Shown: positions 19,206 to 62,292 of the stretch, in pieces | How positions within the stretch are numbered: the first letter of the stretch is position 1 | How the letters are laid out: each line of letters begins with the position of its first letter | NCBI GenBank assembly: GCA_949152475.1 | Contig: CASCJZ010000009.1 | Coordinates: 124,001-188,000 of the forward strand | Direction of reading: 5' to 3' | Length of the DNA: 64,000 nucleotides | Source of the DNA: Terebella lapidaria | Lineage: Eukaryota; Annelida; Polychaeta; Terebellida; Terebellidae | Program-made: the position numbers and the translations under genes | The notes under the pieces: generated by a model | Told to the model about the DNA's origin: nothing | The model's input: only the letters and a program-made list of their open reading frames with translations | The model's database searches: none

Positions 19206-19236
<31 letters not shown>

Positions 19237-32584: not shown

Positions 32585-32649
32585 CAATATCCTATGCATA
32601 TATACAAGATATAAATTATCACAGTGCTCTCAAACCCGGTTCGAACCCG

Positions 32650-34882: not shown

Positions 34883-35099
34883 AAACAAACAAACAAACAA
34901 ACAAACGCAACCGACCAACATACTTGACCAAATTTCATTTGGCCAAGTAACAAACGCAACCGACCAACATACTTGACCAAATTTCATTTGGCCAAGTAAC
35001 AAACGCAACCGACCAACATACTTGACCAAATTCCATTTGGCCAAGTAACAAACAGAACCGATCAACATACTTGACAAAATGTTTGATTTCGTCAAGTAA
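34883..35099 (+). repeat. CAAA tract followed by three H-type and one C-type 3' palindromes
   Basis: The module of CAAACGCAACCGACC plus palindrome occurs three times, the third with ATTCCATTTGG. A C-type end, CAGAACCGATCAACATAC plus palindrome, follows and finishes at 35099. It is one H module longer than the cluster at 32404-32584. Confidence 0.85.
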
Positions 35100-37456
35100 C
35101 AATATCCTGTGCATATATACAAGATATTTATAAAAACCCGGTTCGAACCCGGTTCGTCATCGCCAATAGTTTGAATAATAAGGAGTGTTTCGTGCCTGAA
35201 ATTGTAGTAAATACATCATGGCTTTTAGGCTTTGTGTCATCTGGACATCACTGAGTTAGAAAACAACAGCAACGTTGTTTTGAAGTAAATATTTAGATTA
35301 TTCGAGGTATATTGTGTTACTACACGACCGAATCATTATAGTTAGAATGGGACTCGTGCACAGGGGGTAATCGTTTCCACAACTTATTGGTGTATAAACG
35401 GTCTGAGGACCAGATTTACCCCCACTGCTCTTTCCATGAAGATATCTCGGTGAGTTTTCAATGTATTACAAATATGAAAAGTGCATCATAAACTAGGAAT
35501 AATACTGTTATTGAACACATTGTTTCCTCGCAGATAGTCACAATGACGGAGTCGTGGTTGGCGCTTGCGGTGCATGCAACCTGCACACTCCAACATGACT
35601 ATGGGAACCGACAGGTTCTAATTCAAATTAAAATCACGTTTGACGTCATAGTGACGTGAAATATCGTCATATTTTTAAAATGGCAACAGATTCGGAAAGT
35701 ACCCTTGAAGACCTTTCAAAATTTTTAAAAAGTGAAGGTCAAGGTCATTTTTAAGGTCAAATTCAACCAAGGCACTTGAAAGGCTATGGGTCGTAGGCCT
35801 TAGGTGTAAATACAAATGTTTCTAGGCTAGGTGAAGACAACATTCTGGTTTTACTTTTGCGTTCCTGTTTTCATTAACAGTTGAGATATAGTGACCTACA
35901 CGATTTTCCATTGAAGGTCAATATTGACCTCGGGTTTTGACATTTGACCTTGAAATTTTTTTAACTGGAAGAACTTGACCTCACTTATAAGACAGTCTAC
36001 TGACAGATTTTCACAATCATCATTCAGGCAGTTATCAGTATAGATAGCTCGGGATATGCGATTTTGCTTATAATGGGACCAGCTTTGTTGCCATAAGAAC
36101 GTCAATTTCGTCCCAATGGCTTATCCGATCAGACTCAAAATTGACGTGGAGCATAAGGGACCAACAATACATCGTATTCAAGCATCAAATTGAGAGTCAG
36201 AGATAATATTGTTTTCTCATGAAAGTTTGACCTTGAGCGGTTGGGTCAAGGTCATGGTCAAAGGTCACGGTCAAGGTCACTGAAGATAGACTTTGAGTTT
36301 ATTTACAGTATGCATTTAATTTAAAATCTTCCTGACATATAGAACTGAAGTTATTGCCATTTATGTGATTTTGACCTATTCCTTGACCTTGGCTTTGACC
36401 TGTGACTTTGGGTCACGAAAGTTGTGCACTGCCTGTGTATGGACATACAGATTATACTTGAATAATTTAATCAGAATCAAAAAAGAATTACGGACACTAT
36501 GGCCTTTTGAAATTTTGAAAAATTGACGTTTATGACGTCACTGTGACGTCAGTAGACGTCACATCTGAAAAAGCATGGAACAGTATGTATCAGGGGACTG
36601 ATACCTTCCATTTGATGTACTATTTGATAGGTATCAGTAAGTTTGAAAATTTGACCTTCAAGTTTTGCTCATGTGACCTCATTTTGCCGACCAAGTTCAA
36701 AACCAATCATGAAATTGCCATACACGTCTGATTGTCATATCTCTTCTGAATCATATGGATCAAATTTCAGGAGTCTGCTGCGATTCAAGCAGATGTTATA
36801 ACCGAAAACATGTTTTTCTGGGATTTCGGTAACCTTGACCTTGACCTTTGACCTTTGTACTTCAGTTCGTAGAGGTCAATGCTGTCAAAATGCATATCAA
36901 ATTCCAAGGGATTCCATACACTATTGACGATGTTGTGACCCTTTGAAATTTCGGATTTTCGACGTTTATGACGTCATTGTGACGTCAGTTTACGTCGCAG
37001 CGCCAAAAATAAGATATCGCTGGAATAAGGGGCTCAAGACCTTTCCAACGATATACTACTCGATATGCTGCGCCGACCTTTGTACTTGACCTTGACTTCG
37101 ACCTCAGGCGAACTTCTCAAGGTCAAGGTCAAATGTCAAGGTCAAGGTCACGGAAGATAGAACTCGAGTTTGTCTACAATATGAACTTAGTTTGACGTTT
37201 CTAGGACGATTAGAACCGGTGTTATGGTTATTTATGTGTTTTCGACATTTTGCATGACCTTGATCTCAATATTTGACCTTGAATGCCCATCTTCGAACTC
37301 GTCCGAGCCATTGTCCTACAGAATATTCCGACCTAGTTTGGGAACGATAGAACTGGAATTGTGGACGCTAGAGTGCGTACTGACAAACAAACAAACAAAC
37401 AAACAAACAAACGCAACCGACCAACATACTTGACCAAATTTCATTTGGCCAAGTAA
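35100..37456 (+). repeat. Type C unit 2 (2357 bp)
   Basis: It is highly similar to unit 1 along its whole length, with scattered substitutions. A deletion near its start (about 35128) removes the AAATTATCACAGTGCTC stretch. The core lies at about 35150-35511 with the same GGGGGT/ACCCCC fold. It ends with a single H-type palindrome, after which the broken B monomer resumes. Confidence 0.8.
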
Positions 37457-37505
37457 CAAACGGAACTGACCAACATAGTTGTCGAATTTTCAATTCGTCA
37501 ACTAA

Positions 37506-37558
37506 CAAACAAACGGAACTGACCAACATAGTTGTCGAATTTTCAATTCGTCAACTAA
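37506..37558 (+). repeat. Extra 53-bp 3'-end module at a B-to-A' switch
   Basis: It follows the completed B monomer (ending 37505) and precedes A'. It is the fourth module of this kind; all four lie at A/B boundaries. Confidence 0.9.
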
Positions 37559-38541
37559 TAAAGCTCCGCAAGTAGAAGAGACCCTGCGTATATCCGTTTC
37601 ATGTACAGGATCTTTGGTTTTTAGATGAATGGTGCTCCCTACGCATTTTCGTAAATGTCGATAGTGCTGATATAAAAGAGCCCCTGGCTCGCCAGAGATT
37701 GTATTTAAACAAGAGTTTTAGGCTTTGTTATATCACTTGTGCATTACTGAGTTAGAAAACCACAGAAATGTTGCTTTAGATCAGTATTCAGATGCATACA
37801 AGGTATATTGTATTACTACGCGACCGAGTGTTGATATTAGAGACGGTACATGTGCACAGGGGGTAATCGTTTCCACATCTTATTGAGTTGTAAACGGGCT
37901 GACGAACAGATTTACCCCAGGTCTCTTTAAGTCTTGATATCTCAGCGAGTTTTCAAGTTATTTTGAACATGAAAAATGCACCTTAAACTAGAAATAACAC
38001 CGCATTTTTCCACAAAACAGCTTCAAAATTCAATGTTCAATGATTTTTTGAAAATTGGATCCAGAGGAAAAATAAATGTATCCATAAAACCCGGAATCCG
38101 GATCCGATCCGGATGAAATTTTGTCAGTTTATGGACCATGATAGTCCGCCACTTTGTAGGAAAAATCAAGCTGAAATATGCACAATAGACCGAAATATAA
38201 TATAAAATATAAGTTAAATGGAGTTTTCAATGTTAAATTCAAATAGCTGTCAAATCCGTAATCCGGGTCCGATCCGGGTCAAAATTATAATGTGTGTATA
38301 GGATGTCATTCTACACATGTGACTAAAATTTCAAGAGAATTCATTGAAAATTGAACGAGTTATGAATTTTTGAAAAATCGCCCCATGTTAAAGATAGGGA
38401 TTTTTCGAGTTTTCAAGAATTTTTGATGACGTCATCAATAAACCGATTTTCTTCAAAAACTTTCGGTGTCCTTCCTGGGTGAATACCTACCTATCAGAAA
38501 AATTTGGTGATGCTCGCACTAAAACTGTGGCCTGTAACGTG

Positions 38542-39697: not shown

Positions 39698-39742
39698 CGG
39701 AACTGACCAACATAGTTGTCGAATTTTCAATTCGTCAACTAA

Positions 39743-42036
39743 CGAGGGGCCATAGGCCCGGCAGTTGACGAATTAGGAAGGTTACCGGACAATATATGTT
39801 TTAGATATATGTTTTAGTGAGATATTAGCCATTTTGTGCTCTGACCTCAATTTTCAAATCATGAGGAGATATAACATATATCATTTCCTATACATGTATG
39901 TCCAAAGCTGTAAAGTCGATAAAAAGCGATATATTAGCCACATTGTGCTCTGACCTTGAAAATGAGGTCGAAGGTCAAATGTCAAGGTCACAGAAGATAG
40001 AACTCGAGTTAATCTACAATATGAACTTGGTTTGAAGTCTCTAGGGTGATTAGAACCGAAGTTATGGCCATTTATGTGTTTTCGACACTTTATGTGACTT
40101 TGACCTTGACCTTTGACCTAGGGTCCCCAAATTTCACCCATTTGCAAGTATATACATAAGCATTTCATACGTACAATTTGGTCATGATACGTCCAAAACT
40201 GTGGCTTGTAGAGCGGTAATATACGAAGAACAAACTAGATTTTGATGATAACAATAGAATGCAAAGCAGTTTTTCCGTTGCCATGGCAACATTTTTCAGG
40301 CGAATTTGACTAAAATCAATGGGTGCCTGGCTTTGAGCCTAAAAAGTGTTCCCATAAAGTTTGGTGATGATCCGACCTAAACTGTGATATGTTTCAGTTA
40401 GTTTGAAAATTTGACCTTGAAGTTTTGAATGTGTCCTCATTTTTGCGACCAAGTTCAAGGTCAATCATAAAATTGACATGTACATATGATTACCATGCTT
40501 CTTCTGAATGATATGGTTCAAATTTTATGAGACTACAACGATTCAAGCAGATGTTATAACCGAAAAGGTGTTTTTCTAGGATTTCGATGACCTTGACCTT
40601 GACCTTTGACCTTTGTATTTCAATCCGTAGAGGTCAATGCTATTAATATGCATGTCAAGTTTCAAGATATTCCATACAGTATTGACGCTGTTGTGGCCTT
40701 TTGAAATTTCGGTAATTTGACGTTTATGACGTCATTGTGACGTGAGTGTACGTCGCAGCGCCAAAAATAAGGTATCACTGCAATCAGGGGCCCAAGACCT
40801 TTCCAACGATATACTACTCGATATGATTCGCTGACCTTCGTACTTGACCTTGACATTCACCTCATGGCAAACTCTCAAGGTCAAGGTCAAATGCCAAGGT
40901 CAAGGTCACAGAAGATAGAACCCGAGATTATCTACAATATGAACTTGGTTTGAAGTCTCTAGCACAAATAGAACCGGAGTTATGGCCACTTATGTGTTTT
41001 TAACATTTTGCGTGACCTTGACCTTGACTTTGGACCTGGAGTCACAAAAATTGTGCATTGTCTGTGCATGAATATATATATTGTATCTGTAAAATTTCAT
41101 CAGAATCAAACAAAATTTGTGGACACTATGACCGTTTGAAATTTTGAAAAATTAACGTTTATGACGTCACTGTGACGTCAATAAACGTCACAGCTCAAAA
41201 CTGATGAAAAGGTATGTACCAGAGAATCAAGACCTTTCATTTGATATACTACTTGATAGGTTTCAGTTAGTTTTAAAATTTGACCTTGAAGTTCTCCTCA
41301 TATGACCTTATTTTCCTGACCAAGTTCAAGGTCAATCATGAAATTGACATATAGGTTCGATTGCTATACCTCTTCTGAACGATATGGTTCAAATTTCATG
41401 AACCTACGACAATTCAAACGGATGTTATTACCGGAAATGTGTTTTTCTGGGATTTCGATGACCTTGACCTTGACCTTTGACCTTTGCACTTAAATTCGTA
41501 GAGGTCATTGCTGTCAATATGCATATCAAGTTTCAAGAGATTCCATGCAGTATTGACGATGTTATGGCCTTTTGAAATTTCTGGAATTTGCCGTTTATGA
41601 CGTCATTGTGACGTCAGTTTACGTCGCAGCGCCGAAAATAGGGTAACACTGCGATCAGTGGGTCAAGACCTTTCCAACGATATACTACTCGATATGCTGC
41701 GCTGACCTTCGTACTTGACCTTGACTTCGACCTTGGGCGAACTTCTCAAGGTCAAGGTCAAATGTCAAGGTCAAGGTCACAGACGATAGAACTCGAGTGT
41801 ATCTACAATATGCACTTGGTTAGAAGTCTCTAGAACGATTAGAACCGGAGTTATGACCACTTATGTGTTTTCAACGTTTTGTGTGACCTTGACCTTGACC
41901 TTTGACCTAGGGTCACCAAAAATCACCGGTTTCCAGGTATATACCTAGGCATTGTATCCATACAATTTGGTGATGATCCGGCCAAAACTGTGACCTGTAA
42001 CGTGCAAACAGACAAACAGACAAACAAACAAACAAA
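39743..42036 (+). mobile_element. Element F, HINE-like element with an A-type 5' end, 3' end not in window
   Basis: It starts directly after the palindrome of the last A' monomer. The 5' end is CGAG, then a GGGCC-ATA-GGCCC hairpin (39747-39759), then AGTTGACGAATT (39763-39774). This repeat is the reverse complement of the A/B 3' arm AATTCGTCAACT, so F shows what a full A-lineage 5' end looks like. The body is TGACCT-rich with TGACGTCA modules near 40725, 41160 and 41597. The tail AAAACTGTGACCTGTAACGT matches the A tail. The CAAA tract is broken by element E2, and the expected A-type 3' palindrome does not follow. Confidence 0.75.
40277..40290 (+). promoter_or_regulatory. Perfect RFX X-box palindrome in element F
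   Basis: GTTGCCATGGCAAC is a 14-bp perfect palindrome identical to the textbook RFX-factor X-box. Near matches sit at the corresponding place in type D (GTTGCCGTGACAAC). This is a consensus match only. Confidence 0.45.
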
Positions 42037-43278
42037 CGAGACGACATAGTCGACGCACTTGCCGGAATTCTGAAGGTCAAATGTCACATTCAAGGTCACC
42101 TAAGAACCGCCTTTTGATATGCTACAATATGGTCCTAGTTTGAACTCTCTGTGACGATTAGTTCCGAAGTTATTGTCATTTATGTTATTTTGCCCTTTTT
42201 CTTGACTTTGACCTTGACCTTTGACCTTGGGTCACGAAAATTGTGCATTCCCTGTGCATGAAGACATATATAATACCTGTATAATTTCATCAGAATCGAA
42301 CAAGGTTTGTGGACACTATGACTGTTTGAAATTGTGAAAAATTAACGTTTATGACGTCACTGTGACGTCAATAAACGTCACACCTTAAAACTGATGAGAA
42401 AGTATGTACCAGGGAATCAAGACCTTTCATTTGATATACTACTTGATAGGTTTTAGTCAGTTTGAAAATTTGACCTTGAAGTTCTCCTCATATGACCTTA
42501 TTTTCCTGACCAAGTTCAAGGTCAATCATGAAATTGACATATAAGTCCGATTGCTATACCTCTTCTGAATGATATGGTTTAAATTTCATGAACTTACGAC
42601 AATTTAAACGGATGTTATTACCGGAAATGTGTTTTTCTGGGATTTCGATGACCTTGACCTTGACCTTTGACCTTTGTACTTAAATTCGTAGAGGTCATTG
42701 CTGTCAATATGCATATCAAGTTTCAAGAGATTCCATACAGTATTGAAGATGTTATGGCCTTTTGAAATTTCGGAAATTTGACGTTTATGACGTCATTGTG
42801 ACGTCAGTGTACGTCGCAGCGCCAAAAATAAGGTATCACTGCAATCAGGGGCTCAAGACCTTTCAAACGATATACTACTCGATTTGCTGCGCCGACCTTC
42901 GTACTTGACCTTGACATTCACCTCATGGCGAACTTCTCAAGGTCAAGGTCAAATGTCGAGGTCAAGGTCACATGAGATAGAACTCGAGTTTATCTACAAT
43001 ACGAACTTGGTTTGAAGTCTCTATCACGAATAGAACCGGAGTTATGGCCATTTATGTGTTTTCATCGTTTTGCGTGACCTTGACCTTGACCTTGGACCTA
43101 GAATCACCAAAAACGTGCAGTCGCGAGCCATCATGCTAGAGAATATGCACACCAAGTTTGGGAAGAATCAAGCAAAAACTGTGGACGCTAGAGGGCGTAC
43201 AGACAAACAAACACACAAACACACAAACAAACCAACCGACCAATATACTTGCCGAAATCTTTAGATTCCGGCAAGTAA
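42037..43278 (+). mobile_element. Element E2, complete HINE-like element nested in F
   Basis: The 5' end is CGAGA, then CGAC-ATA-GTCG (42042-42052), then ACTTGCCGGAAT (42057-42068). The 3' palindrome is at 43247-43276. It has the same termini and a homologous body to E1 (shared GTTTGTGGACACTATGAC and GTGACGTCAATAAACGTCAC), at 1242 versus 1404 bp. It entered the CAAA tract of F. The tail AAAACTGTGGACGCTAGAGG leads into a mixed CAAA/CACA tract. Confidence 0.8.
43247..43276 (+). repeat. 3' terminal palindrome of E2
   Basis: The arms are ACTTGCCG.AATCT and AGATTCCGGCAAGT, slightly imperfect. AA follows, then the first type D element starts at once. Confidence 0.8.
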
Positions 43279-43611
43279 TGAAGCAATCGCTCAAAGAGCT
43301 AGGACTTGGCAAAATAAAGTTAATGATCTTGAAGAGAGGTCTATAAACTAGCTAAAAGAACGTCCTGAGAGACACTTGAATAGTTCTTTTTTTAAAATTA
43401 TCTAGTTGCTTTTAAGTAAGTTGTAATTGTGCAGTTATGCTATAAAAGACATGATCCTGTAAGTTAGAGAGAAAAAAACAAGTTTTGAGAGAGAGTTGAA
43501 CCCGGGTCTGTGGATTCAAAGTCCGGAGCTCTATGCACAGCACCAAAGTTGCCGACAGTGTGAAGTGGTGTATTTATTGCATGTACTGCTGAAAACCGGG
43601 AAAGGGGCCGG

Positions 43612-43967
43612 TTCGTCACCCCCAGCAGTCCTAATATAAGGGAGCCTGTCGCTTGACACAGACTGTATTTAGACTAGAGTTTTAGGCTTTGTTATATCAC
43701 TTGTACATCACTGAGTTAGAAAACAACTGAAATGTTGTTTGAGATCTGCATCTGGATACATATATGATATACTGTATTGCTATGCAACCGAGCGTGTGTA
43801 TTTAGGACGGGACATGTCCACAGGGGGTAATCGTTTCTACAGCTTATTGACGTGTGAACGGATTGAGAATCAGATTCACCCCACTGCTCTTTCTACTTTG
43901 ATATCTCGGCGAGTTTTCAATCTATTCCAAATGTAAAAGGTGCATTATAAACTAGAAATAACACTGC
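43612..43967 (+). other. Conserved core, type D copy
   Basis: It runs from TTCGTCACCCCCAGCAG through the ATATAAGGGAGCC TATA-like site, GTTTTAGGCTTTGTTATATC and CACAGGGGGTAATCGTTTC to AAATAACACTGCA. It matches type B from TTCGTCACCCCC onward. Other full D cores lie near 44845-45215, 53278-53637, 54355-54715 and 55445-55800. Confidence 0.78.
43823..43882 (+). other. Predicted branched fold in the type D core
   Basis: GGGGT (43824-43828) pairs with ACCCC (43878-43882), and AATC (43829-43832) with GATT (43873-43876), with one bulged C. GTTT (43833-43836) pairs with GAAC (43856-43859, one T.G pair). GATT (43861-43864) pairs with AATC (43868-43871) around a GAG loop. The layout matches type C with different stem bases. 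Confidence 0.6.
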
Positions 43968-44335
43968 AACTGACTGTATAAAAACTAAGTTAGAGATAAA
44001 AGAGATTAGAGTTTTGAGGGAGGGTTGAACACGGGTCTTTGGATTCAAAGTCTTACGCTCTATCCACGGCACCAACGTTGCCGACAGTGTGAAGAAGTGT
44101 TTTCCATGTAACAGTTACTTCATGGTTTTCCAGCCTCCATAGTTATAGTTATGTAACGGTTTTTCAGTCGCCAAGACAACAGTTTTTAAGCTATGACCTT
44201 CAAAATCGATAGGCTTATGCAGGAATCTTATGCGCATCTTCTTTGAAAATTTCATGTCATTCCGACAAGGATTGCGGCCGCTATCGTGCGAACAGACGGA
44301 CAGAACACATAATTGATCGCTGAGCAACATACAAC

Positions 44336-44523
44336 TGAAGCAATCGCTCAAAGAGCTAGGACTTGGCAAAATAAAGTAATGAACTTGAAAAGAAGTCTAT
44401 AATAAACCAGCTAAAAAACGTGTCATTCCGACGTGTCATTCATGTCATTCCGACAAGGATTGCGGCCGCTATCGTGCGAACAGACGGACAGAACACATAT
44501 TTGATCGCTGAGCAACATACAAC
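44336..44523 (+). mobile_element. Type D remnant with large internal deletion (188 bp)
   Basis: It keeps the 5' hairpin and subterminal repeat and the last about 110 bp of a D1 element, with a short duplication of the GTGTCATTC string at the join (about 44420-44445). All tRNA-like and core sequence is gone. Confidence 0.85.
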
Positions 44524-44705
44524 TGAAGCAATCGCTCAGAGAGCTAGGACTTGGCAAAATAAAGTAATGAACTGGAAAAGAAGTCTATACACTAGCTTTT
44601 ACACTAGCTTGATACAGTTATTAAATTGTGATGTTATGTTGTTTAGAACGAAATTCATGATCATGATTGTGTAAGTTGAAAATAAAAATAAAATAATTTC
44701 AAGAG

Positions 44706-44773
44706 AGATTTGAACCCGGGTCTGTGGATTCAAAGTCCTGAGCTCTACGCACAGCACCAAAGTGGCCGACAGC
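44706..44773 (-). pseudogene. tRNA-like module (degenerate, Gln-TTG-like anticodon arm)
   Basis: On the minus strand it reads TTGGTGCTGTGCGTAGAGC (A-box/D-arm-like), then GGACTTTGAATCC (anticodon stem-loop with TTG), then CCCGGGTTCAAATCTC (B-box/T-loop-like). The acceptor and T stems do not close well, so this is not a functional tRNA. It looks like a tRNA-derived SINE head carried antisense inside the element. Similar modules occur once or twice in nearly every D element. Confidence 0.65.
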
Positions 44774-45260
44774 GTCAAGTTGTGTTGTATTGTGACAGTT
44801 CCTCTATGGCAAATTACTGCTAAAAACCGGGAATGGGGTCGGTTCCTTTGCCGGTTCGTCATTGCCAACAGTCCTAATATAAGGGAGCCTGTGGCTTGAC
44901 ACAGACTGTATTTAGACTAGAGTTTTAGGCTTTGTTATGTCACTTGTACATCACTGAGTTAGAAAACCACTGAAATATTGTTTGAGATCTGCATCTGGAT
45001 ACATATATGATATACTATATTGCTATGCAACCGAGCGTGTGTATTTAGGACGGGACATGTCCACAGGGGGTAATCGTTTCTACAGCTTATTGGCGTGTGA
45101 ACGGATTGAGAATCAGATTCACCCCACTGCTCTTTCTACTTTGATATCTCGGCGAGTTTTCAATCTATTCCAAATGTAAAAGATGCATTATAAACTAGAA
45201 ATAACACTGCAACTGACTGTATAAAAACTAAGTTAGAGATAAAAGAGATTAGAGTTTTGA

Positions 45261-45330
45261 GGGAGGGTTGAACACGGGTCTTTGGATTCAAAGTCTTACG
45301 CTCTATCCACTGCACCAACGTTGCCGACAG
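45261..45330 (-). pseudogene. tRNA-like module, second position of D1
   Basis: The minus strand reads TTGGTGCAGTGGATAGAGC, then GACTTTGAATCC, then ACCCGTGTTCAACCCTC. The A-box-like part is the best preserved in the window, while the B-box-like part is weaker. It differs consistently from the first-position module, so the two copies are old relative to the array. Confidence 0.6.
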
Positions 45331-45578
45331 TGTGAAGAAGTGTATTCCATGTAACAGTTACTTTATGGTTTTCCAGCCTCCATAGTTATAGTTATGTAAA
45401 GGTTTTTCAGTTGCCAAGACAACAGTTTTTAAGCTATGACCTTCAAAATCAATAGGCTTGTGCAGGAGTCTCATGCGCATCTTCTTTGAAAATTTCATGT
45501 CATTCCGACAAGGATTGCGCCCGCTATCGTGCGAACAGACGGACAGAACACATATTTGATCGCTGAGCAACATACAAC

Positions 45579-47321
45579 TGAAGCAATCGCTCAAAGAGCT
45601 AGGACTTGGCAAAATAAAGTAATGAACTTGAAAAGAAGTCTATAATAAACCAGCTAAAAAACGTTTTGATAGAGACTTGAATAGTTCTTTTCTTTAAATT
45701 ATCTATTTGCTGTGAAGTAAATTGTACATGTATTAAATTGTGCAGATATGCTATATAGAATAAAGACATGATCTTGTAAGTTAGAGAGAAAAAACAAGTT
45801 TTGAGAGAGAGAGTTGAACCCGGGGTCTATGGATTCAAAGTCCTGAGCTCTACCCACTGCACCAAAGTGGCCGACAGCATCAAGTTGTGTTGTATTGTAA
45901 CAGTTCCCCTATGGCAAATTACTGCTAAAAACCGGGAAGGGGGCCGGTTTCCTCCGCCGGTTGATCACCCCCAATAGTTCTGATATAAAGTAGCCTGGCG
46001 TTTGACACAGACTGTATTAAGAATGAAGTTTTAGGCTTTGTTGTATCACTAGCACATCACTGAGTTAGAAAACCACCGAAATGTTGTTTGAGATCTGCAT
46101 TTGGATACATATATGATATACTGTATTGCTATGCAACCGAGTTTTGTATATTCAGGAGATAACACAGATGCGCTATGATGCATGAAACACATGATCATAA
46201 TGGAACCAATGAGACACTGTAAATGACTTGGAAAATATATAGAAAGAAATAATTGAGTGTGATGACATAGAATTGACGAAGATTACTGCTGCTATATATA
46301 TTTGCTGAATTTGTACACTACGAATGTGTTGTTTCCTTGTTTGGAATTGAATACATGATCTCATAATGGAGAAAAAAAAATAGTTTTGAGATAGTATTGA
46401 ACCCGGGTTTGTGGATTCAAAGTCCTACACTCTACGCTCAGCACTAACGTGGCTGGCGATGTGAAGCGGAGTGTTTCATATAGCAATGCTATTATCGTTT
46501 TCATGTAATGCTTTTCAGTAACGATTTTCTGTTGCCGTGACAACAGTTTCAGAGCTATGATGTTCCAAATCAAAAGCGTTATGCGGACATTCCGTGCACA
46601 TATTATGTGAGAATTTCGTCAAAATCACACAAGAATCGACTGCACAGCAATGTGTTAAACTTTGGATCTGAAATTCCTGACCCCCATGTATTTCACCTGG
46701 ATTTTAAATCGTCAATTTTGATTCAACCGCTGTCGGTCATACATCAAATGATGCAGAATTGGCCATAGTAAAAGACGTGAACACTTTTGGAAGTGCAGGT
46801 GGAATGAAAGTGGAGTTATGACGATTTTTAATTTTGTGGTTTTTCAATGACCTTGGCGTTAATTCTTGACCTTTGACATTGAGAAACAACAGGAATGTGC
46901 CGTTATACTGTGTGCATATGCTGTCAAAATTTCATAAGAATCCGACAAAAATTGACTGCACAGCATTGCTTGAAACTTTTGATCCAGAAACTCCTGACCC
47001 CCGTCTTTTTAACCTGGAGTCAAAATCGTCAATTTTGACTCAACAGCTGTCGGCCATACATCAAAAGATGCAGAATTGGCCATAGTAATCGATGCAAGAA
47101 ATCTCGAAAATCCAGATAGAATATAACTGGAGTTATTACGATTTTTAATTTTTTGGTTTTTGAACGACCTTGACGTCAATTTTTGACCTTTGACCTTCAG
47201 AAACGAAAGGCTTATGAGGATGCTCTTTGCGCATATTGTGTGAAATTTTCATGAAAATCCGACAAGAATTGCGCCCGCTATCGTGCAAACTGACGGACAG
47301 ACAAACATACAAACAAACAAA
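45579..47321 (+). mobile_element. Type D2 element, left part (interrupted by the next element)
   Basis: The D 5' end is followed by tRNA-like modules at about 45811-45878 and 46393-46460. The core between them breaks off after CAACCGAG, so the GGGGGTAATC fold is missing. The 3' half has 2.3 copies of a 316-bp repeat (AAGAATCGACTGCACAGC at 46631, its counterparts near 46948 and 47264) with TGACCTTGGCG and TTGACCTTTGACCTT. It stops inside its CAAA tract, where the next element begins. Its proposed 3' end is 49683-49733. Confidence 0.75.
46531..46544 (+). promoter_or_regulatory. RFX X-box-like site in type D2
   Basis: GTTGCCGTGACAAC is one or two changes from the X-box consensus. It recurs in every D2/D3 element; the copies at 50644-50657 (GTTACCATGACAAC) and 59957-59970 (GTTGCCATGACAAC) are closer to consensus. 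Confidence 0.4.
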
Positions 47322-49044
47322 TGAAGCAATCGCTCAAAGAGCTAGGACTTGGCAAAATAAAGTAATGAACTTGAAAAGAAGTCTATAATAAACCAGCTAA
47401 AAAACGTTTTGAGAGAGACTTGAATAGTTTTTTCTAGTTGCTGTTAAGTAAGTTGTACATGTATTAAATTGTGCAGTTATGCTATAAAAGACATGATCTT
47501 GTAAGTTAGAGAGAAAAAACCAGTTTTGAGAGAGAGTTGAACCAAGGTCTGTGGATTCAAAGTCCTGAGCTCTACGCACAGCACAAACGTGGCTGACAGC
47601 ATGAAGTGGTGTATGTATGGTAACAGGTCCTTCAAGGCAAATTACTGCTAGAAACCGGGAATGGGGCCGGTTTCCTCTGCCGGTTGATCACCCCCAATAG
47701 TTCTGATATAAAGTAGCCTGGCGTTTGACACAGACTGTATTAAGAGTAGCGTTTTAGGCTTTGTTATATCACTAGTACATCACTGAGTCAGAAAACCACC
47801 AAAATGTTGTTTGAGATCTGCATTTGGATACATATATGATATACTGTATTAATACGCAACCGAGTTTTGTATATTCAGGAGATAACACAGATGCGCTATG
47901 ATGCATGAAACACATGATCATAATGGAACCAATGAGACACTGTAAATGACTTGGAAAAATATATACCAAGAAATAATTGAGTGTGATGACATAGAAATGA
48001 CGAAGATTACTGCTGCTATATATATTTGCTGAATTTGTACACTACGAATGTGTTGTTTCCTTGTTTGGAATTGAATACATGATCTCATAATGGAGAAAAA
48101 AAATAGTTTTGAGATAGTATTGAACCCGGGTTTGTGGATTCAAAGTCCTACACTCTACGCTCAGCACTAACGTGGCTGGCGATGTGAAGCAGAGTGTTTC
48201 ATATAGCAATGCTATTATCGTTTTCATGTAATGCTTTTCAGTAACGATTTTCTGTTGCCGTGACAACAGTTTGAGAGCTATGATGTTCCAAATCAAAAGG
48301 GTTATGCGGACATTCCGTACACATTTTATGTGAGAATTTCGTCAAAATCACACAAGAATCGACCGCACAGCAATGTGTTAAACTTTGGATCCGAAATTCC
48401 TGACCCCCATTCATTTCACCTGGAGTTTAAATCGTCAATTTTGACTCAACCGCTGTCGGTCATACATCAAATGATGCAGAATTGGCCATAGTAAAAGACG
48501 TGAACACTTTTGGAAGTGCTGGTGGAATGAAAGTGGAGTTATGACGATTTTTAATTTTGTAGTTTTTCAATGACCTTGGCGTTAATTCTTGACCTTTGAC
48601 CTTGAGAAACAACAGGAATGTGCCGTTATACTGTGTGCATATGCTGTCAAAATTTCATAAGAATCCGACAAAAACTGACTGCACAGCAATGCATGAAACG
48701 TTTGATCCAGAAACTCCTGACCCCCGTCTTTTTAACCTGGAGTCAAAATCGTCAATTTTGATGCAACAGCTATCGGCCATACATCAAAAGATGCAGAATT
48801 GGCCATAGTAATCGACGCAAGAAATCGCGAAACTCCAGATAAAATATAATTGGAGTTATTGCGATTTTTAATTTTTTGGTTTTTGAAAGACCTTGACGTC
48901 AATTTTTGACCTTTGACCTTCAGAAGCGGAAGGCTTATGAGGAAGATTCTTGCACATGTTGTGTCAAAATTTCATGAAGATCCGACAAGAATTGCGCCCG
49001 CTATCGTGCGAACGGACGGACAGACAAACATACAAACAAACAAA
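47322..49044 (+). mobile_element. Type D2 element, left part (nested in the previous, interrupted by the next)
   Basis: It starts directly after (CAAA)3 of the element at 45579. tRNA-like modules are at about 47533-47600 and 48115-48180; the core is truncated and 316-bp repeats follow. It ends within its own CAAA tract. Its proposed 3' end is 49628-49682. Confidence 0.75.
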
Positions 49045-49627
49045 TGAAGCAATCGCTCAAAGAGCTAGGACTTGGCAAAATAAAGTTAATGATCTTGAAG
49101 AGAAGTCTATAAACTAGCTTTGGTCTATAAACCCCTGCACCATAGTACTGTTATATATTTTTTTTCAATTATTTATTTATCGTTAACTGAATTGTACGTT
49201 TACTAAATTGTGTTGTTATTTTGTTTATGATTAAATGCATGATCATGATTCTGTAAGCTAAAAATAAAAAAAAAATAGTTTCAAGAGAGACTTGAACCCG
49301 GGTCTGTGGATTGGGAGTCATACGCTCTACGCTCAGCACTAACGTGGCTGGCAGTTGGAGGAGGTGTCATCCACGTAGCAACTCATGTATGGCTTTCCAA
49401 TCTCCATAGGTTTAAGCAATGTAACCTTTTTTGGTCGCCAAGACAACAGTTTTTGAGCTATGATCTTCAAATTCAATAGGCTTATGAAGGAGTCTTATGC
49501 GCATCTTCTGTGTAAATTTGATGTCATTCAGACGAGGATTGCGGCCGCTATCGTGCAAACTGACGGACAGACAAACAAACAAGCTGACTGACCAACATAC
49601 TTGGCAAAAATTTATTTTGCCAAGTAA
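49045..49627 (+). mobile_element. Short type D4 element with its own 3' palindrome (583 bp)
   Basis: It has a D 5' end, one antisense tRNA-like module (about 49285-49354), an AT-rich stretch at 49150-49280 and a single tail repeat. The 3' palindrome ends at 49627 with one extra A in its centre. It is the innermost member of a three-level nest. Confidence 0.75.
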
Positions 49628-49733
49628 CAAACAAACAAGATGACTGACCAACATACTTGGCAAAATTTATTTTGCCAAGTAACAAACAAGATGACTGACC
49701 AACATACTTGGCAAAATTTATTTTGCCAAGTAA
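49628..49733 (+). repeat. Two leftover 3' ends in a row
   Basis: 49628-49682 is (CAAA)2 CAAGATGACTGACC plus palindrome, and 49683-49733 is (CAAA)1 CAAGATGACTGACC plus palindrome. They match the number of interrupted outer elements (47322 and 45579). Confidence 0.85.
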
Positions 49734-51434
49734 TGAAGCAATCGCTCAGAGAGCTAGGACTTGGCAAAATAAAGTATTGAACTGGAAAAGAAGTCTATAC
49801 ACTAGCTTTTACACTAGCTTGATACAGTTATTAAATTGTGTTGTTATGTTGTTTAGAATGAAATTCATGATCATGATTGTGTCAGTTGAAAATAAAAATA
49901 AAATAATTTCAAGAGAGATTTGAACCCGGGTCTGTGGATTCAAAGTCCTGAGCTCTACGCACTGCACCAACGAGGCTGACAGCATCAATTGTGTTGTATT
50001 GTAACAGGTTCTTGAAGGCAAATTACTGCTAAAAACCGGGAATGGGGCTGATCTCTACGCCGTTTCGTCACCCAGGATAGTTCTGATATAAAAGAGCCTG
50101 TCGCTTTCCACAGATTGTATTTAGACAAGAGTTTTAGGCTTCGTTATATCACTTGTACACCTCTGAGTCAGAAAACAAAAGAAATGTTGTTTGAGATCTG
50201 CATTTGGATACTTTTATGATATACTGTATTACTACGCAACCGAGATGGAACGATATAATGATGTATGTATTATTGATAGGATGGAGCTAACACGGATGCG
50301 CTATGATGCATAAAAGACACGATCATGATGGAACCAATGAAACACTGTTAAGTGATATTTTTAGCGACAAATAGTTAAGTATGATGACATGAAAACTATG
50401 AAAATTACTCCTGGTACATTTATTTGCTGAATACCTACATTATGAATGCGTTGTTTTGTTATTTGGAATTAAATACTTGATCGTGTAAGCAAGCGATAAA
50501 AAAAAATAGTTTCAAGAGAGACTCGAACACGGGTCTGTGGATTTAAAGTCCTAAGCTCTATGTCGCAGGCAATGTGAGGTGGTGTATTTCGTATAGCAAT
50601 GCTATCACGGTTTTCATGTGATTTGTCAAGTAACGATTTTTCCGTTACCATGACAACAGTTTTAGAGCTATGATGTTCCAAATCAACAGGGTTATGCGGA
50701 TGTTTTGTGCACATATTCTGTGAGAATCTCGTCAAAATCACACAAGAATTGACTGCACAGCAATGTGTTAAACTTTGGATCCGAAATTCCTGACCCCCAT
50801 GTATTTCACCTGGAGTTTGATTCGTCAATTTTGATTCAATCACTGTCGGACATACATCAAAATATGCAGAATTGGCCATAGTAAAATAGGTGGACAATTT
50901 TGGAAGTGCAGGTGGAATGAAAGTGGAGTTATGACGATTTTTAATTTTTTGGTTTTTCAATGACCTTGGCGGTAATTCTTGACCTTTGACCTTGAGAAAC
51001 AACAGGAATATGCCGACATTTGGTGTGCATATGCTGTGAAAATTTCATAAGAATCCGAAAAGAATTGACTGCACAGCAATGCATGAAACTTTTGATAGAG
51101 AAACTCCTGACCCTCGTCTTTTTAACCTGGAGTCAAAATCGTCAATTTTGATGCAACAGCTGTCGGCCATACATCAAAAGATGCAGAATTGGCCATAGTA
51201 ATCGATGCAAGAAATCTCGAAACTCCAGATGAAATATAACTGGAGTTATTACGATTTTTAATATTTTGGTTTTTGAACGACCTTGGCGTCAATTTTTGAC
51301 CTTTGACCTTCAGAAACGAAAGGCTTATGAGGAAGATACTTGCACATGTTGTGTCAAAATTTCATGAAAATCCGATAAGAATTGCGCCCGCTATCGTGCA
51401 AACTGACGGACAGACAAACATACAAACAAACAAA
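49734..51434 (+). mobile_element. Type D2 element, left part (interrupted by the next)
   Basis: The GCTC-AGA-GAGC hairpin is present. A tRNA-like module lies at about 49915-49983 and a damaged one at about 50516-50572. The core is truncated after CAACCGAG, with its own upstream variant (CTGATATAAAAGAGCC). An X-box-like GTTACCATGACAAC is at 50644-50657, followed by 316-bp repeats. It ends at (CAAA)3; its proposed 3' end is 52900-52946. Confidence 0.72.
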
Positions 51435-52899
51435 TGAAGCAATCGCTCAAAGAGCTAGGACTTGGCAAAATAAAGTAATGAACTTGAAGAGAAGTCTATA
51501 AACCAGCTTTGGTCTATAAACCCTTGCATCATGATACTGTAATAATATTAAATTGTGCTGCTACATTCTTCAGAATTGAAAGCATGATCATGATCTTGTA
51601 AGTTACAGATGAAAAATTACAATGACAACAAGTGAACAAAACGAATAGAGACACTCGGTGAATACAAATCATGCCAGAATGGACTTAACACAGATGCATT
51701 ATGATGCATGAAGGACACGATCATAATGGAACCAATGAGACACTGTTAAATGACTTTAAGGAATTCATAGTGAGAAATAATTAAGTATGATGACATAATA
51801 ACGATAAAGATTACTCGTGCTACATTGGTTTGCTGATTTTGTACACTACGAATGTGTTGTTTCGTTGTTTGGAATTGAATACATGATCTTTTAACGGAGA
51901 AAAAAAATAGTTTTGAGATAGTATTGAACCCGGGTCTGTGGATTCAAAGTCCTACACTCTACGCTCAGCACTAACGTGGCTGGCGATGTGAAGCGGAGTG
52001 TTTCATATAGCAATGCTATTATCGTTTTCATGTAATGCTTTTCAGTAACGATTTTCTGTTGCCGTGACAACAGTTTCAGAGCTATGATGTTCCAAATCAA
52101 AAGGGTTATGCGGACATTCCGTGCACATATTATGTGAGAATTTCGTCAAAATCACACAAGAATCGACTGCACAGCAATGTGTTAAACTTTGGATCCGAAC
52201 TTCCTGACCCCCATGTATTTCACCTGGAGTTTAAATCGTCAATTTTGATTCAACCGCTGTCGGTCATACATCAAAAGATGCAGAATTGGCCATAATAAAA
52301 GACGTGGACACATTTGGAAGTGCAGGTGGAATGAAACTGGACTTATGACCATTTTTAATTTTTTGGTTTTTCAACGATTTTGTCGTTAATTCTTGACCTT
52401 TGACCTTGAGAAACGACAGGAATATGCCGACATCTGGTGTGCATGTGCTGTGAAAATTTCATAAAAATCCGACAGGAATTGACTGCACAGCAATGCATGA
52501 AACTTTTGATCCAGAAACTCCTGACCCCCGTCTATTTAACCTGGAGTCAAAATCGTCAATTTTCACTCAACAGCTGTCGGCCATACATCAAAAGATGCAG
52601 AATTGGCCATAGTAATCGATGCTAGAAATCTCGAAACTCCAGATAAAATATAACTGGAGTTACTACGATTTTTAATTTTTTGGTTTTTGAACGACCTTGA
52701 CGTCAATTTTTGACCTTTGACCTTCAGAAACGAAAGGCTTATGTGGAAGATCCTTGCACATGTTTTGTCAAAATTTCATGAAAATCCGACAAGAATTGCG
52801 CCCGCTATCGTGCAAACTGACGGACAGACAAACATACAAACAAACAAACAAACAAGATGACTGACCAACATACTTGGCAAAATTTATTTTGCCAAGTAA
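51435..52899 (+). mobile_element. Type D3 element with its own 3' palindrome (1465 bp)
   Basis: It starts after the CAAA tract of the element at 49734. It has no conserved core; that place is taken by AAATTACAATGACAACAAG. One tRNA-like module lies at about 51918-51985, then 316-bp repeats and the palindrome ending at 52899. Confidence 0.75.
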
Positions 52900-52946
52900 C
52901 AAGATGACTGACCAACATACTTGGCAAAATTTATTTTGCCAAGTAA
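52900..52946 (+). repeat. Leftover 3' end of the element at 49734
   Basis: CAAGATGACTGACC plus palindrome with no CAAA unit in front. This fits insertion immediately before the final CAAG. Confidence 0.8.
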
Positions 52947-54003
52947 TGAAGCAATCGCTCAAAGAGCTAGGACTTGGCAAAATAAAGTTAATGATCTTGA
53001 AGAGAGGTCTATAAACTAGCTAAAAAAAACGTTCTGAGAGAGACTTGAATAGTTCTTTTTTTAAATTATCTAGTTGCTTTTAAGTAAGTTGTAATTGTGC
53101 AGTTATGCTATAAAAGACATGATCCTGTGAGTTGGAGAGAAAAAACAAGTTTTGAGAGGGAGTTGAACCCGGGGTATGTGGATTCAGAGTCCTGAGCTCT
53201 ATACACAGCACCAAAGTTGCCGACAGTGTGAAGTGGTGTATTTATTGTATGTACTACTAAAAACCAGGAAGGGGGCCGGTTCGTCACCCCCAGCAGTCCT
53301 AATATAAGGGAGCCTGTCGCTTGACACAGACTGTATTTAGACTAGAGTTTTAGGCTCTGTTATATCACTTGTACATCACTGAGTTAGAAAACCACTGAAA
53401 TGTTGTTTGAGATCTGCATCTGGATACATATATGATATACTGTATTGCTATGCAACCGAGCGTGTGTATTTAGGACGGGACATGTCCACAGGGGGTAATC
53501 GTTTCTACAGCTTATTGGCGTGTGAACGGATTGAGAATCAGATTCACCCCACTGCTCTTTCTACTTTGATATCTCGGCGAGTTTTCAATCTATTCCAAAT
53601 GTATAAGGTGCATTATAAACTAGAAATAACACTGCAACTGACTGTATAAAAACTAAGTTAGAGATAAAAGAGATTAGAGTTGTGAGGGAGGGTTGAACAC
53701 GGGTCTTTGGATTCAAAGTCTTACGCTCTATCCACTGCACCAACGTTGCCGACAGTGTGAAGAAGTGTATTCCATGTAACAGTTACTTTATGGTTTTCCA
53801 GCCCCCATAGTTACAGTTATGTAACGGTTTTTCAGTCGCCAAGACAACAGTTGTTAAGCTATGACCTTCAAAATCAATAGGCTTGTGCAGGGGTCTTATG
53901 CGCATCTTCTTTGAAAATTTCATGTCATTCCGACAAGGATTGCGCCCGCTATCGTGCGAACAGACGGACAGAACACACATTTGATCGCTGAGCAACATAC
54001 AAC
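52947..54003 (+). mobile_element. Type D1 element (1057 bp)
   Basis: tRNA-like modules lie at about 53157-53226 and 53690-53757 with a full core between. It begins right after a palindrome and ends CATACAAC. Confidence 0.8.
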
Positions 54004-55081
54004 TGAAGCAATCGCTCAAAGAGCTAGGACTTGGCAAAATAAAGTAATGAACTTGAAAAGAAGTCTATAATAAACCAGCTAAAAAACGTTTTGAGAGAGA
54101 TTTGAATAGTTCTTTTTTTAAAATTATCTAGCTGCTGTTAAGTAAACTGTACATGTATCAAATTGTGCAGTAATGCTATAAAAGACATGATCCTGTAAGT
54201 TAGAGAGAAAAAACAAGTTTTGAGAGGGAGTTGAACCCGGGTCTGTGGATTCAAAGTCCTACACTCTATGCACAGCACCAACGTGACCGACAGTGTGAAG
54301 TGGTGTATTTATTTTATGTATTGCTAAAAACCGGGAATGGGGCCGGTTCCTTTGCCGGTTCGTCACCCTCAGCAGTCCTAATATAAGGGAGCCTGTGGCT
54401 TGACACAGACTGTATTTAGACTAGAGCTTTAGGCTTTGTTATATCACTTGTACATCACTGAGTTAGAAAACCACTGAAATGTTGTTTGAGATCTGCATCT
54501 GGATACATATATGATATACTGTATTGCTATGCAACCGAGCGTGTGTATTTAGGACGGGACATGTCCACAGGGGGTAATCGTTTCTACAGCTTATTGGCGT
54601 GTGAACGGATTGAGAATCAGATTCACTCCACTGCTCTTTCTACTTTGATAGCTCGGCGAGTTTTCAATCTATTCCAAATGTAAAAGGTGCATTATAAACT
54701 AGAAATAACACTGCAACTGACTGTATAAAACTAATTTAGAGATAAAAGAGATTAGAGTTTTGAGGGAGGGTTGAACACGTGTCTTTGGATTCAAAGTCTT
54801 ACGCTCTATCCACTCCACCAACGTTGCCGACAGTGTGAAGGAGTGTATTCCATGTAACAGTTACTTTATGGTTTTCCAGCCTCCATAGTTATTGTTATGT
54901 AACGGTTTTTCAGTCGCCAAGACAACAGTTTTTAAGCTATGACCTTCAAAATCAATAGGCTTGTGCAGGAGTCTTATGCGCATCTTCTTTGAAAATTTCA
55001 TGTCATTCCGACAAGGATTGCGCCCGCTATCGTGCGAACAGACGGACAGAACACATATTTGATCGCTGAGCAACATACAAC
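54004..55081 (+). mobile_element. Type D1 element (1078 bp)
   Basis: tRNA-like modules lie at about 54226-54293 and 54764-54833 with the core between. It has the longer CCGGTTCCTTTGCCGGTTCG form upstream of the core. Confidence 0.8.
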
Positions 55082-56166
55082 TGAAGCAATCGCTCAGAGA
55101 GCTAGGACTTGGCAAAATAAAGTTAATGATCTTGAAGAGAGGTCTATAAACTAGCTAAAAAAACGTTCAGAGAGAGATTTGAATAGTTCTTTTTTTTTTA
55201 AATTATCTAGTTGCTGTTAAGTAAGTTGTAATTGTGCAGTTATGCTATGAAAGACATGATCTTGTCATTTAGAGAGAAAAAACAAGTTTTGAGAGAGAGT
55301 TGAACCCAGGTCTGTGGATTCAGAGTCCTGAGCTCTATGCACAGCGCCAACGTGGCCTACAGCGTAAAGTGGTGTATGTATTGTAACAGTTCCTCTATGG
55401 CAAATTACTGCTAAAAACCGGGAATGGGGCCGGTTCCTTTGCCGGTTCGTCACCCCCAGCAGTCCTAATATAAGGGAGCCTGTCGCTTGACACAGACTGT
55501 ATTTAGACTAGAGTTTTAGGCTTTGTTATATCACTTGTACATCACTGAGTTAGAAAACCACTGAAATGTTGTTTGAGATCTGCATCTGGATACATATATG
55601 ATATACTGTATTGCTATGCAACCGAGCGTGTGTATTTAGGACGGGACATGTCCACAGGGGTAATCGTTTCTACAGCTTATTGGCGTGTGAACGGATTGAG
55701 AATCAGATTCACCCCACTGCTCTTTCTACTTTGATATCTCGGCGAGTTTTCAATCTAATTCCAAATGTAAAAGATGCATTATAAACTAGAAATAACACTG
55801 CAACTGACTGTATAAAAACTAAGTTAGAGATAGAGTTTAGAGTTTTGAGGGAGGGTTGAACACGGGTCTTTGGATTCAAAGTCTTACGCTCTATCCACTG
55901 CACCAACGTTGCCGACAGTGTGAAGAAGTGTATTCAATGTAGCAGTTACTTTATGGTTTTCCAGCCTCCATAGTTATAGTTATGTAACGGTTTTTCAGTC
56001 GCCAAGACAACAGTTTTTAAGCTATGACCTTCAAAATCAATAGGCTTGTGCAGGAGTTTTATGCGCATCTTCTTTGAAAATTTCATGTCATTCCGACAAG
56101 GATTGCGCCCGCTATCGTGCGAACAGACGGACAGAACACATATTTGATCGCTGAGCAACATACAAC
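55082..56166 (+). mobile_element. Type D1 element (1085 bp)
   Basis: tRNA-like modules lie at about 55297-55362 and 55848-55920. The core has four G in place of five at CACAGGGGTAATC, which still allows the GGGGT/ACCCC pairing. Confidence 0.8.
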
Positions 56167-57911
56167 TGAAGCAATCGCTCAGAGAGCTAGGACTTGGCAA
56201 AATAAAGTAATGAACTGGAAAAGAAGTCTATACACTAGCTTTTACACTAGCTTGATACAGTTATTAAATTCTATTGTTATGTTGTTTAGAACGAAATTCA
56301 TGATCATGATTGTGTAAGTTGAAAATAAAAATAAAATAATTTCAAGAGAGATTTGAACCCGGGTCTGTGGATTCAAAGTACTGAGCTCTACGCACAGCAC
56401 CAAAGTGGCTGACAGCGTCAAGTTGTGTTGTATTGTGACAGTTCCTCTATGGCAAATTACTGCTAAAAACCGGGAATGGGGCCGGTTTCCTCCGCCGGTT
56501 GATCACCCCCAATAGTTCTGATATAAAGTGGCCTGTCGTTTGACACAGACTGTATTAAGAGTATAGTTTTAGGCTTTGTTATATCAATAGTACATCACTG
56601 AGTCAGAAAACCACCAAAATGTTGTTTGAGATCTGCATTTGGATACATATATGATATACTGTATTACTACGCAACCGAGTTTTGTATATTCAGGAGATAA
56701 CACAGATGCGCTATGATGCATGAAACACATGATCATAATGGAACCAATGAGACACTGTAAATGACTTGGAAAAATATATACCAAGAAATAATTGAGTGTG
56801 ATGACATAGAATTGACGAAGATTACTGCTGCTATATATATTTGCAGAATTTGTACACTACGAATGTGTTGTTTCCTTGTTTGGAATTGAATACATGATCT
56901 CATAATGGAGAAAAAAAAATAGTTTTGAGATAGTATTGAACCCGGGTTTGTGGATTCAAAGTCCTACACTCTACGCTCAGCACTAACGTGGCTGGCGATG
57001 TGAAGCGGAGTGTTTCATATAGCAATGCTATTATCGTTTTCATGTAATGCTTTTCAGTAACGATTTTCTGTTGCCGTGACAACAGTTTCAGAGATATGAT
57101 GTTCCAAATCAAAAGAGTTATGCGGACATTCCGTGCACATATTATGTGAGAATTTCGTCAAAATCACACAAGAATCGACTGCACAGCAATGTGTTAAACT
57201 TTGGATCTGAAATTCCTGACCCCCATGTATTTCACCTGGAGTTTAAATCGTCAATTTTGATTCAACCGCTGTCGGTCATACATCAAATGATGCAGAATTG
57301 GCCATAGTAAAAGACGTGAACACTTTTGGAAGTGCAGGTGGAATGAAAGTGGAGTTATGACGATTTTTAATTTTGTGGTTTTTCAATGACCTTGGCGTTA
57401 ATTCTTGACCTTTGACCTTGAGAAACAACAGGAATGTGCCGTTATACTGTGTGCATATGCTGTCAAAATTTTATAAGAATCCGACAAAAATTGACTGCAC
57501 AGCAATGCATGAAACTTTTGATCCAGAAACTCCTGACCCCCGTCTTTTTAACCCGGAGTCAAAATCGTCAATTTTGATGCAACAGCTGTCGGCCATACAT
57601 CAAAAGATGCAGAATTGGCCATAGTATTCGAGGCTAGAAATCTCGAAACTCCAGATAAAATATAACTGGACTTATTACGATTTTAAATTTTTTGGTTTTT
57701 GAACGACCTTGACGTCAATTTTTGACCTTTGACCTTCAGAAACGAAAGGCTTATGAGGAAGATCCTTGCACATGTTGTGTCAAAATTTCATGAAAATCCG
57801 ACAAGAATTGCGCCCGCTATCGTGCGAACGGACGGACAGACAAACATACAAACAAACAAACAAACAAGATGACTGACCAACATACTTGGCAAAATTTATT
57901 TTGCCAAGTAA
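56167..57911 (+). mobile_element. Type D2 element, uninterrupted (1745 bp)
   Basis: This is the one D2 copy whose left part and 3' palindrome are contiguous. Hairpin GCTC-AGA-GAGC, tRNA-like modules at about 56345-56415 and 56931-57000, a truncated core, 316-bp repeats, CAGA/CATA/CAAA tract and palindrome follow in order. It serves as the reference for the broken copies. Confidence 0.8.
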
Positions 57912-62233: not shown

Positions 62234-62292
62234 CAAACAAACAAACAAGATGACTGACCAACATACTTGGCAAAATTTATTTTGCCAAGTAA
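62234..62292 (+). repeat. Leftover 3' end
   Basis: (CAAA)3 CAAGATGACTGACC plus palindrome. It closes one of the two interrupted outer elements; the other has no visible close. Confidence 0.8.

Follow-up and report, generated by a model that had tools for sequence, protein, structure and literature searches.

The genome of the annelid Terebella lapidaria (GenBank assembly GCA_949152475.1, 762 Mb) contains long stretches of repeated elements, and here we analyse one 64-kb stretch of it (contig CASCJZ010000009.1, C23:124001-188000; hereafter, the window), in which an array of three such elements lies at 45579-49733. This array is very probably a nest of non-autonomous Helentron-type transposable elements, with one element (B) inserted in the CAAA tract of another (A), and a third (C) inserted in the CAAA tract of B. 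Directly observed are the layout of the array, exact empty sites in the tracts of a second family (N), the matching of sequence variants, and the single orientation of the elements. The window is part of a 726-kb contig and was analysed together with the 200 kb to its right (264 kb in all); numbering is carried on from the window, and contig position equals window numbering plus 124000. Motif searches were exact or near-exact, and thus miss diverged copies.

Design of the elements

Repeated elements of one design occupy much of the window. After a tip that carries a small hairpin come, in order, a subterminal repeat, a body, a CAAA/CAGA tract, the linker GACCAACATA and a palindrome with an arm similar to the subterminal repeat; AA forms the end. 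We use the terms "tip" and "palindrome end" (or close) because the strand of the Rep hits, discussed below, seems to conflict with the published 5' layout of such elements. Families are named by their ends: T, which is the family of a preliminary description made from the sequence alone, and N, P, Q, R, S and U. The T-family subterminal repeat ACTTGGCAAAATAAA is present both at the tip and in the palindrome arm; the corresponding matches are shorter (at least 11 bp) in P, Q and the N-related type N', and the ends of the S family match imperfectly. In all seven typed tips a hairpin of at least 4 bp begins 4-11 nt from the tip, with a fold energy clearly better than that of shuffled sequences for Q and S only.

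The probable nest at 45579-49733

The three tips (TGAAGCAATCGCTC...) of the array stand at 45579, 47322 and 49045 on the + strand, confirming the element starts given in the preliminary description. Element A (45579-47321), the outermost host, and element B (47322-49044) are both of the T family and 95.3% identical over ungapped columns. As had been described, each stops inside its CAAA tract: the sequence before 47322 and that before 49045 both end in CATA(CAAA)3, without linker or palindrome. Element C (49045-49627), of a short subfamily, is followed by a row of 26-bp perfect palindromes, three in all, with linkers at 49585, 49641 and 49692, then by AA and the next tip at 49734.

The preliminary description took each of the three palindromes to be preceded by a leftover piece of CAAA tract. 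This holds for two of them, but the first is C's own end and has no leftover. The close at 49585 has the AAGC linker (AAGCTGACTGACC), one extra A in the palindrome and the terminal AA, and we assign it to C because this linker and the extra A recur in both of the further C-type closes that were detected (131885 and 153570). The two extra closes carry (CAAA)2 and (CAAA)1, respectively, ahead of the CAAGATGACTGACC linker, and show the AAGA and AAAA states of the A/B subfamily rather than the variants of C, which bears out the variant check that had been proposed for them; duplication of C's palindrome is rejected on the same grounds. In both, the tetramers are followed by CAAGATGACTGACCAACATA, the palindrome and AA. 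We assign the remnant at 49628-49682 to B (3+2 tetramers) and that at 49683-49733 to A (3+1 = 4 tetramers).

An empty site for A is found in its intact paralogue at 56167-57911 (+ strand), which has CATA(CAAA)4CAAG and a single close; aligned with A and the outer remnant joined together, it shows 95.4% identity in the ungapped columns and has 69 gap columns, and its four tetramers equal the sum for A. The proposed tetramer check also came out in favour of nesting: in the five T hosts that could be counted on both sides, the sums are 4 for A, 5 for B, 3 for element D of the neighbouring nest, 4 for the element at 59334, and 4 for a T element interrupted by a Q stack, as compared with a mean of 4.6 (range 2-8) in 24 intact T copies, two of 26 with a changed repeat unit being left out. 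These sums agree with nesting, but alone they do not assign each remnant to its host.

On the reading that we consider very probable, B entered A's tract and C entered B's in the same tetramer phase (CAAA | element with AA | CAAA), leaving after C first its own end, then the cut-off end of B and then that of A. With the target dinucleotide on one strand of the tract, each copy would land in the direction of its host, and nesting would proceed head to tail. Insertion would be carried out by the Rep, helicase and endonuclease of autonomous relatives.

The insert sides of the A|B and B|C junctions are only 75% alike and A shares 95.3% identity with B, which indicates independent events rather than copies of one junction; the origin of both from one junction copied by recombination is rejected. 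The tract junctions at 51435, 59334, 60740 and 108998, the insert sides of which are 99% alike, may be copies of one another.

Empty sites in the N family and a host opened across the T block

Nested insertion is most directly visible in the tracts of the N family, where three inserts, all on the + strand, can be removed to restore the host. Excision of a P-family element (11423-12826) from the tract of an N unit (10408-12879) leaves 1068 bp without a mismatch to the unit on either side (1068/1068). Excision of an S-family element (24361-27366) likewise leaves 1068 bp; this sequence differs from the next unit at two positions, which both lie in the tract (1066/1068), and from the unit at 12880 at four (1064 identical). 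The third insert is a 6,993-bp stack of Q-type and X units (30464-37456), with the N close from 37457 onward; without it the host is 961 bp long and identical to the N unit at 22381-23341 (961/961), double palindrome included. In the restored sites AA is counted once, whether as part of the element or as a 2-bp duplication, which look the same. The N close comes last in all three cases, and these are nested insertions, last in, first out, without loss. The order of inner-family closes followed by a host-type close recurs at 12836, 27372 and 37462 (N hosts), 82215 and 169558 (T hosts), and 174011 (an N' host).

The last of these concerns an N'-type host on the + strand (39735-42036). It is interrupted in its tract by a P-type element (42037-43278, + strand), and directly after the palindrome and AA of the latter begins a block of T elements, of which 43279-64000 lies in the window. 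The whole block extends over 43279-173945 (130,667 bp). Its T tips number 94, and every T tip in the 264 kb has the + orientation. Before the right-hand 200 kb was examined, we predicted an N-type close for the 39735 host to the right of the window. It lies at 174011, about 66 bp past the end of the T block, with a second, unpredicted P palindrome in between. The N' subterminal repeat AGTTGACGAATT has its sole exact matches in 39735-264000 in the two arms of this close. An uninterrupted copy of the T-block site, at 188268, has two mismatches in 107 bases. Within the block, a linker cut after CAAGA at 76395 has its complementary half, TGACTGACC, at 82257, the only one in the 264 kb. With exact empty sites, and with the halves of one host separated by some 132 kb, the succession of events can be read from a single locus.

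Taken together, the N-tract empty sites, the variants of the remnants, the tetramer sums, the last-in-first-out order and the close of the 39735 host lend good support to what the preliminary description had proposed for A, B and C.

The CAAA tract as a proposed landing pad

Typed tips break into a tract nine times in the window and into a body not once (log10 P of -10.8 when target sites are counted as AA steps and -4.5 when counted as CAAA words); the test covers typed tips other than those that directly follow a palindrome or stand at an ATACAAC junction. On its + strand the tract contains no TT. We suggest that the direction of a newcomer is fixed because the target dinucleotide sits on one strand of the tract only and is read there, which fits the single orientation. 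The preference for tracts and this polarity support the earlier suggestion that the tract is a built-in landing pad, and the tract would then be a preferred one. A further step would be to regard the (CAAA)n tract as a self-carried polar pad, which favours insertion of the element's own kind in one direction, gives rise to mega-arrays of single orientation, and has left the family almost wholly inside itself. We put this forward tentatively, as a possibility that we would not yet back over its negation. In its favour, one site carries an array of 130.7 kb between two palindromes, and 1,530 of the 1,628 exact T tips in the genome follow CAAA, the palindrome-end AAGTAA or the tandem junction of the array, ACAAC.

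It could be argued that these elements insert into any AA-rich stretch, and that the tract is hit only for its richness in AA and is no special pad. Published HINEs do prefer T-rich sites and TT (PMC4067079, PMC7492417). However, the bodies of the nine hosts hold most of the AA steps, and in seven of the nine also most of the CAAA words, yet none of the 94 block T tips lies in a body. We therefore consider this explanation unlikely.

The idea that the tract is the main route by which arrays grow finds no support as it was put. Only 12 of the 94 T-block tips lie in a tract and two in the adjoining linker, as against 51 at junctions of the ATACAAC type and 29 that directly follow a palindrome with its AA; none lies elsewhere. 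Genome-wide, the exact T tips divide into 840 after ACAAC, 506 after AAGTAA, 184 after CAAA and 98 others. Another 70 tract tips with the CAGAGAGC variant bring the genome-wide number to 254; the remnant-type closes number 233, including at least one chance match.

The ATACAAC junctions join short T units without a palindrome (ATACAAC|TGAAGC), as at 43279-45578 and 52947-56166 in the window; the 51 mentioned above all lie in 43279-173945. Often two or three such units precede one complete long unit. The junction has 840 exact copies in the genome, and such a group may be a composite, multiplied as a whole, that has several tips but a single palindrome end.

Tip and close counts, and alternative explanations

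The preliminary description leaned on the balance between element starts and closing palindromes. Starting from 45579, the balance is indeed 3/3, but three earlier tips (43279, 44336 and 44524) are also without a palindrome of their own, their units ending at ATACAAC|TGAAGC without a CAAA tract. With the ATACAAC-junction units set aside, the T-family counts of tips and closes in the window are 3/3, 2/2, 1/1, 3/2 and 1/1; the element at 63755 is cut short by the window's end. The 2/2 case is a second nest on the + strand (49734-52946), with element D at 49734-51434, element E inside it at 51435-52899 and the D remnant at 52900-52946. The 3/2 case is an unbalanced nest at 57912-62292 (+ strand; tips 57912, 59334 and 60740, closes 62192 and 62251). 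Its extra tip probably arose by tandem duplication, since the bodies at 57912 and 59334 are 99.3% identical.

Over the whole T block there are 42 closes, comprising 12 remnants and 30 own closes, one of the latter of family U. Interruption and extra close are associated among its groups: six have both, one has an interruption only, one an extra close only, and 21 neither (Fisher p 1e-4). A U insert at 165797 entered this test after the extra closes that it explains had been seen; without it the groups are 5/1/2/21 and p is 1e-3. When the T block is combined with a 50-kb array on another contig (C1; 12 groups, the end-cut last group being left out, and foreign inserts being taken from closes, not tips), p is 9e-5, or 1.3e-3 without foreign inserts.

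A number of results weigh against nesting as the general explanation, or against details of the array as we read it. Taken by itself, the C1 array (3/3/1/5) gives a non-significant p of 0.55. In a genome-wide test, the nearest remnant is downstream of the tract tip in only 14 of 27 cases, which gives no support, and when stacks are matched, 34 of 97 remnants and 29 of 92 tips are left over; these tests used 92 of the 254 tract tips (up to about C5:37.48 Mb) and 97 of the 233 remnants, one obvious non-member and the last two of 100 listed remnants being left out. The look for the same balance elsewhere in the genome, which had been suggested as a check, thus drew no support from the C1 array alone or from the genome-wide nearest-remnant test. 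The prefix-balance statistic is uninformative, as it passes in 94% of shuffles. Within the T block, group 101609-112202 has three interruptions and no extra close, group 57912-62292 two and one, and group 67599-82298 five and three, while in the groups at 124591 and 163167 extra closes outnumber interruptions (0/1 and 1/2). The predicted T remnant to the right for the element at 57912 is indistinguishable from other remnants, and a second linker cut, at 110429, lacks a complementary half anywhere in the 264 kb. Tract insertion accounts for just the 184 of the 1,628 exact T tips noted above. For the array itself, nothing but the number of tetramers distinguishes the remnant assigned to A from that assigned to B, which leaves their order weakly fixed, and the sum of five for B is one above the four of the paralogue.

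Units with one body and several palindromes belong here too. N doubles with one start and two palindromes, all with the same remnant, are found at 21384/21437, 23245/23298, 29508/29561 and 37462/37515, despite which none of 26 N starts lies inside a CAAA tract; Q triples occur at 34908-35006, and P ends are stacked further still beyond the window. Elements that naturally end in two or three palindromes had been named as the finding that would overturn the nest, and in the literal sense they exist, but in families other than T. Copies with stacked palindromes and one body may be later products of nests, through composite transposition or end bypass, or of recombination between bodies. Bracket counts alone prove little about nesting, and the balance does not serve as proof.

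Such units also raise the question of whether C was already a composite with three palindromes, inserted once beside truncated copies of A and B. The N doubles and Q triples, together with the multi-terminus Helitrons described in Fusarium (PMC5148889), make this conceivable. However, the C variants are confined to C's own end and those of A/B are seen at the two extra ends, the tracts in which A and B break off in phase are completed by the two remnants, and a three-ended C in B's tract would leave the ends of A and B as well, so that five palindromes would be expected where three are seen. We regard a composite C as improbable. Least probable of all, and in our view barely tenable for 45579-49733, is an array that is a satellite formed by unequal crossing-over or from rolling-circle concatemers, its tract junctions copied from one old junction: near-identical neighbours (12 adjacent N-unit pairs, the bodies at 57912 and 59334), the one ACAAC junction shared by 840 T tips and the several tract junctions with 99% alike insert sides speak for it, but A and B share 95.3% identity, C is of another subfamily, the insert sides at A|B and at B|C agree at only 75%, and recombination between repeats alone makes no CAAA|tip junction with a complementary remnant. 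Satellite-type recombination does explain other parts of the array.

Relationship to Helentrons and known systems

The elements of the window are of the Helentron type, having subterminal repeats, terminal hairpins, an AA/TT target and a microsatellite, with the Helentron protein set encoded on the same contig. Considered trait by trait, subterminal inverted repeats are present at both ends, as is a short hairpin near one terminus; the restored empty sites have the TT/AA target and no other target duplication. An autonomous partner with Rep, PIF1 and endonuclease exists in the form of a P-type element, not one of the T family. This element, of about 22 kb (tip at about 212513, tract at about 234995), has matches to Helitron_like_N/Rep (PF14214), PIF1 (PF05970) and Exo_endo_phos (PF03372), the pieces of which lie in three broken frames and were scanned apart. 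It is itself interrupted in its tract by another element. The genome has at least 150 Helitron_like_N matches. The canonical Helitron structure (5'-TC, CTRR-3', insertion between A and T) is not found: the ends are TGAAGC (or CGAG) and AAGTAA, and the site lies within CAAA.

Rep hits share the strand of T tips in 16 of 17 cases within 50 kb, 24 of 27 within 100 kb and 35 of 39 within 200 kb, in a comparison of 118 of the 150 Rep hits with 106 T positions among those listed. The coding strand thus seems to run from tip to palindrome, with the microsatellite end downstream of it. In published HINEs the microsatellite end is placed at the 5' end (PMC4067079, PMC7492417); we rejected a flip of the 5' and 3' labels to match that layout, as the strand of the Rep hits argues against it. 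Rep frames near T arrays are mostly on the tip strand, and whole regions seem to have one transposon direction.

The Helentron, HINE and DINE-1 elements described by Thomas et al. (2014; PMC4067079) resemble those here in that both ends have subterminal inverted repeats, a small palindrome lies close to one of them, and a microsatellite is present. They also have TT (AA) flanks, with the boundary Ts counted as part of the element, and the described protein set of Rep, PIF1 and endonuclease. Their subterminal repeat lies 2-4 nt from the terminus at the 5' end, whereas the end with this arrangement here seems to be downstream of the Rep frames, which would be either a mirror image or a matter of convention. 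Cg_HINE of the Pacific oyster (Vojvoda Zeljko et al. 2020; PMC7492417) is similar in having a subterminal inverted repeat, its complementary inverted repeat and a mostly tetranucleotide microsatellite at one end, a subterminal inverted repeat and palindrome at the other, and a TT target with no target site duplication seen; as far as its main text goes, nesting in the element's own microsatellite is not described, and the word "nested" is absent. For FoHeli of Fusarium oxysporum, self-insertion near one terminus has been proposed as a route to stacked termini with one body, in a few cases and not in arrays, and without a microsatellite pad in the description of those cases (PMC5148889). Centromeric Helitron arrays (Xiong et al. 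2016, as cited in PMC12628747) resemble the N and X units of the window in being tandem and in having one end in many copies but the other in few. They are, however, attributed there to rolling-circle amplification of a truncated circle, which gives no CAAA|tip junctions with complementary remnants.

Tandem Helitron arrays, self-insertion with stacked termini and the microsatellites of HINEs are therefore already in print. In the open-licence literature we found no description of a HINE's own microsatellite as a landing site. Helitron-like elements of Lepidoptera are said, in the title of a 2010 study by Coates et al., to disrupt (GAAA)n microsatellites, which are tetranucleotide and A-rich as here. 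The element type is thus known, and what is unusually clear in this locus is the evidence for an element's own repeat as the landing site. As far as we know, two questions have no settled answer: why a microsatellite is retained close to one end of HINEs, and how satellites derived from Helitrons begin. A polar pad inside the element, if true, would bear on both, as it would draw insertions into existing copies, fix their orientation and seed tandem arrays.

Other features of the window and its surroundings

The window has three open reading frames of at least 100 amino acids, and none has a Pfam match; a coding function in the window is rejected on these grounds. A stretch of the T bodies that looks tRNA-like gave no hit with either ARAGORN or Rfam, and a tRNA or other known RNA is likewise rejected there.

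Units of the N family, mostly of 1068 bp, are arranged head to tail at 796-11422 and 12880-23341, and the 12 adjacent pairs compared are 99.7-100% identical. Their start (TAAAGC) has no tip hairpin, in which it differs from the related N' at 39735, and they look like a young satellite made of truncated elements. Two X units of 2.3 kb (32583-34907 and 35098-37413) start directly after R-type palindromes, again without a hairpin tip, and end in Q-type palindromes; 32430-35052 and 34949-37562 match at 96.6%.

Stacks of six to nine palindrome ends, mostly P-type, lie to the right of the window at 175490-175791, 188268-188848 and 260447-260793, and carry differing tetramer remnants (CATC, CAAT and CACA). 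Internal tandem repeats of 328 bp in an S element (24630-27014) and 369 bp in a Q element (31298-32283) resemble the central satellite repeats of oyster HINEs.

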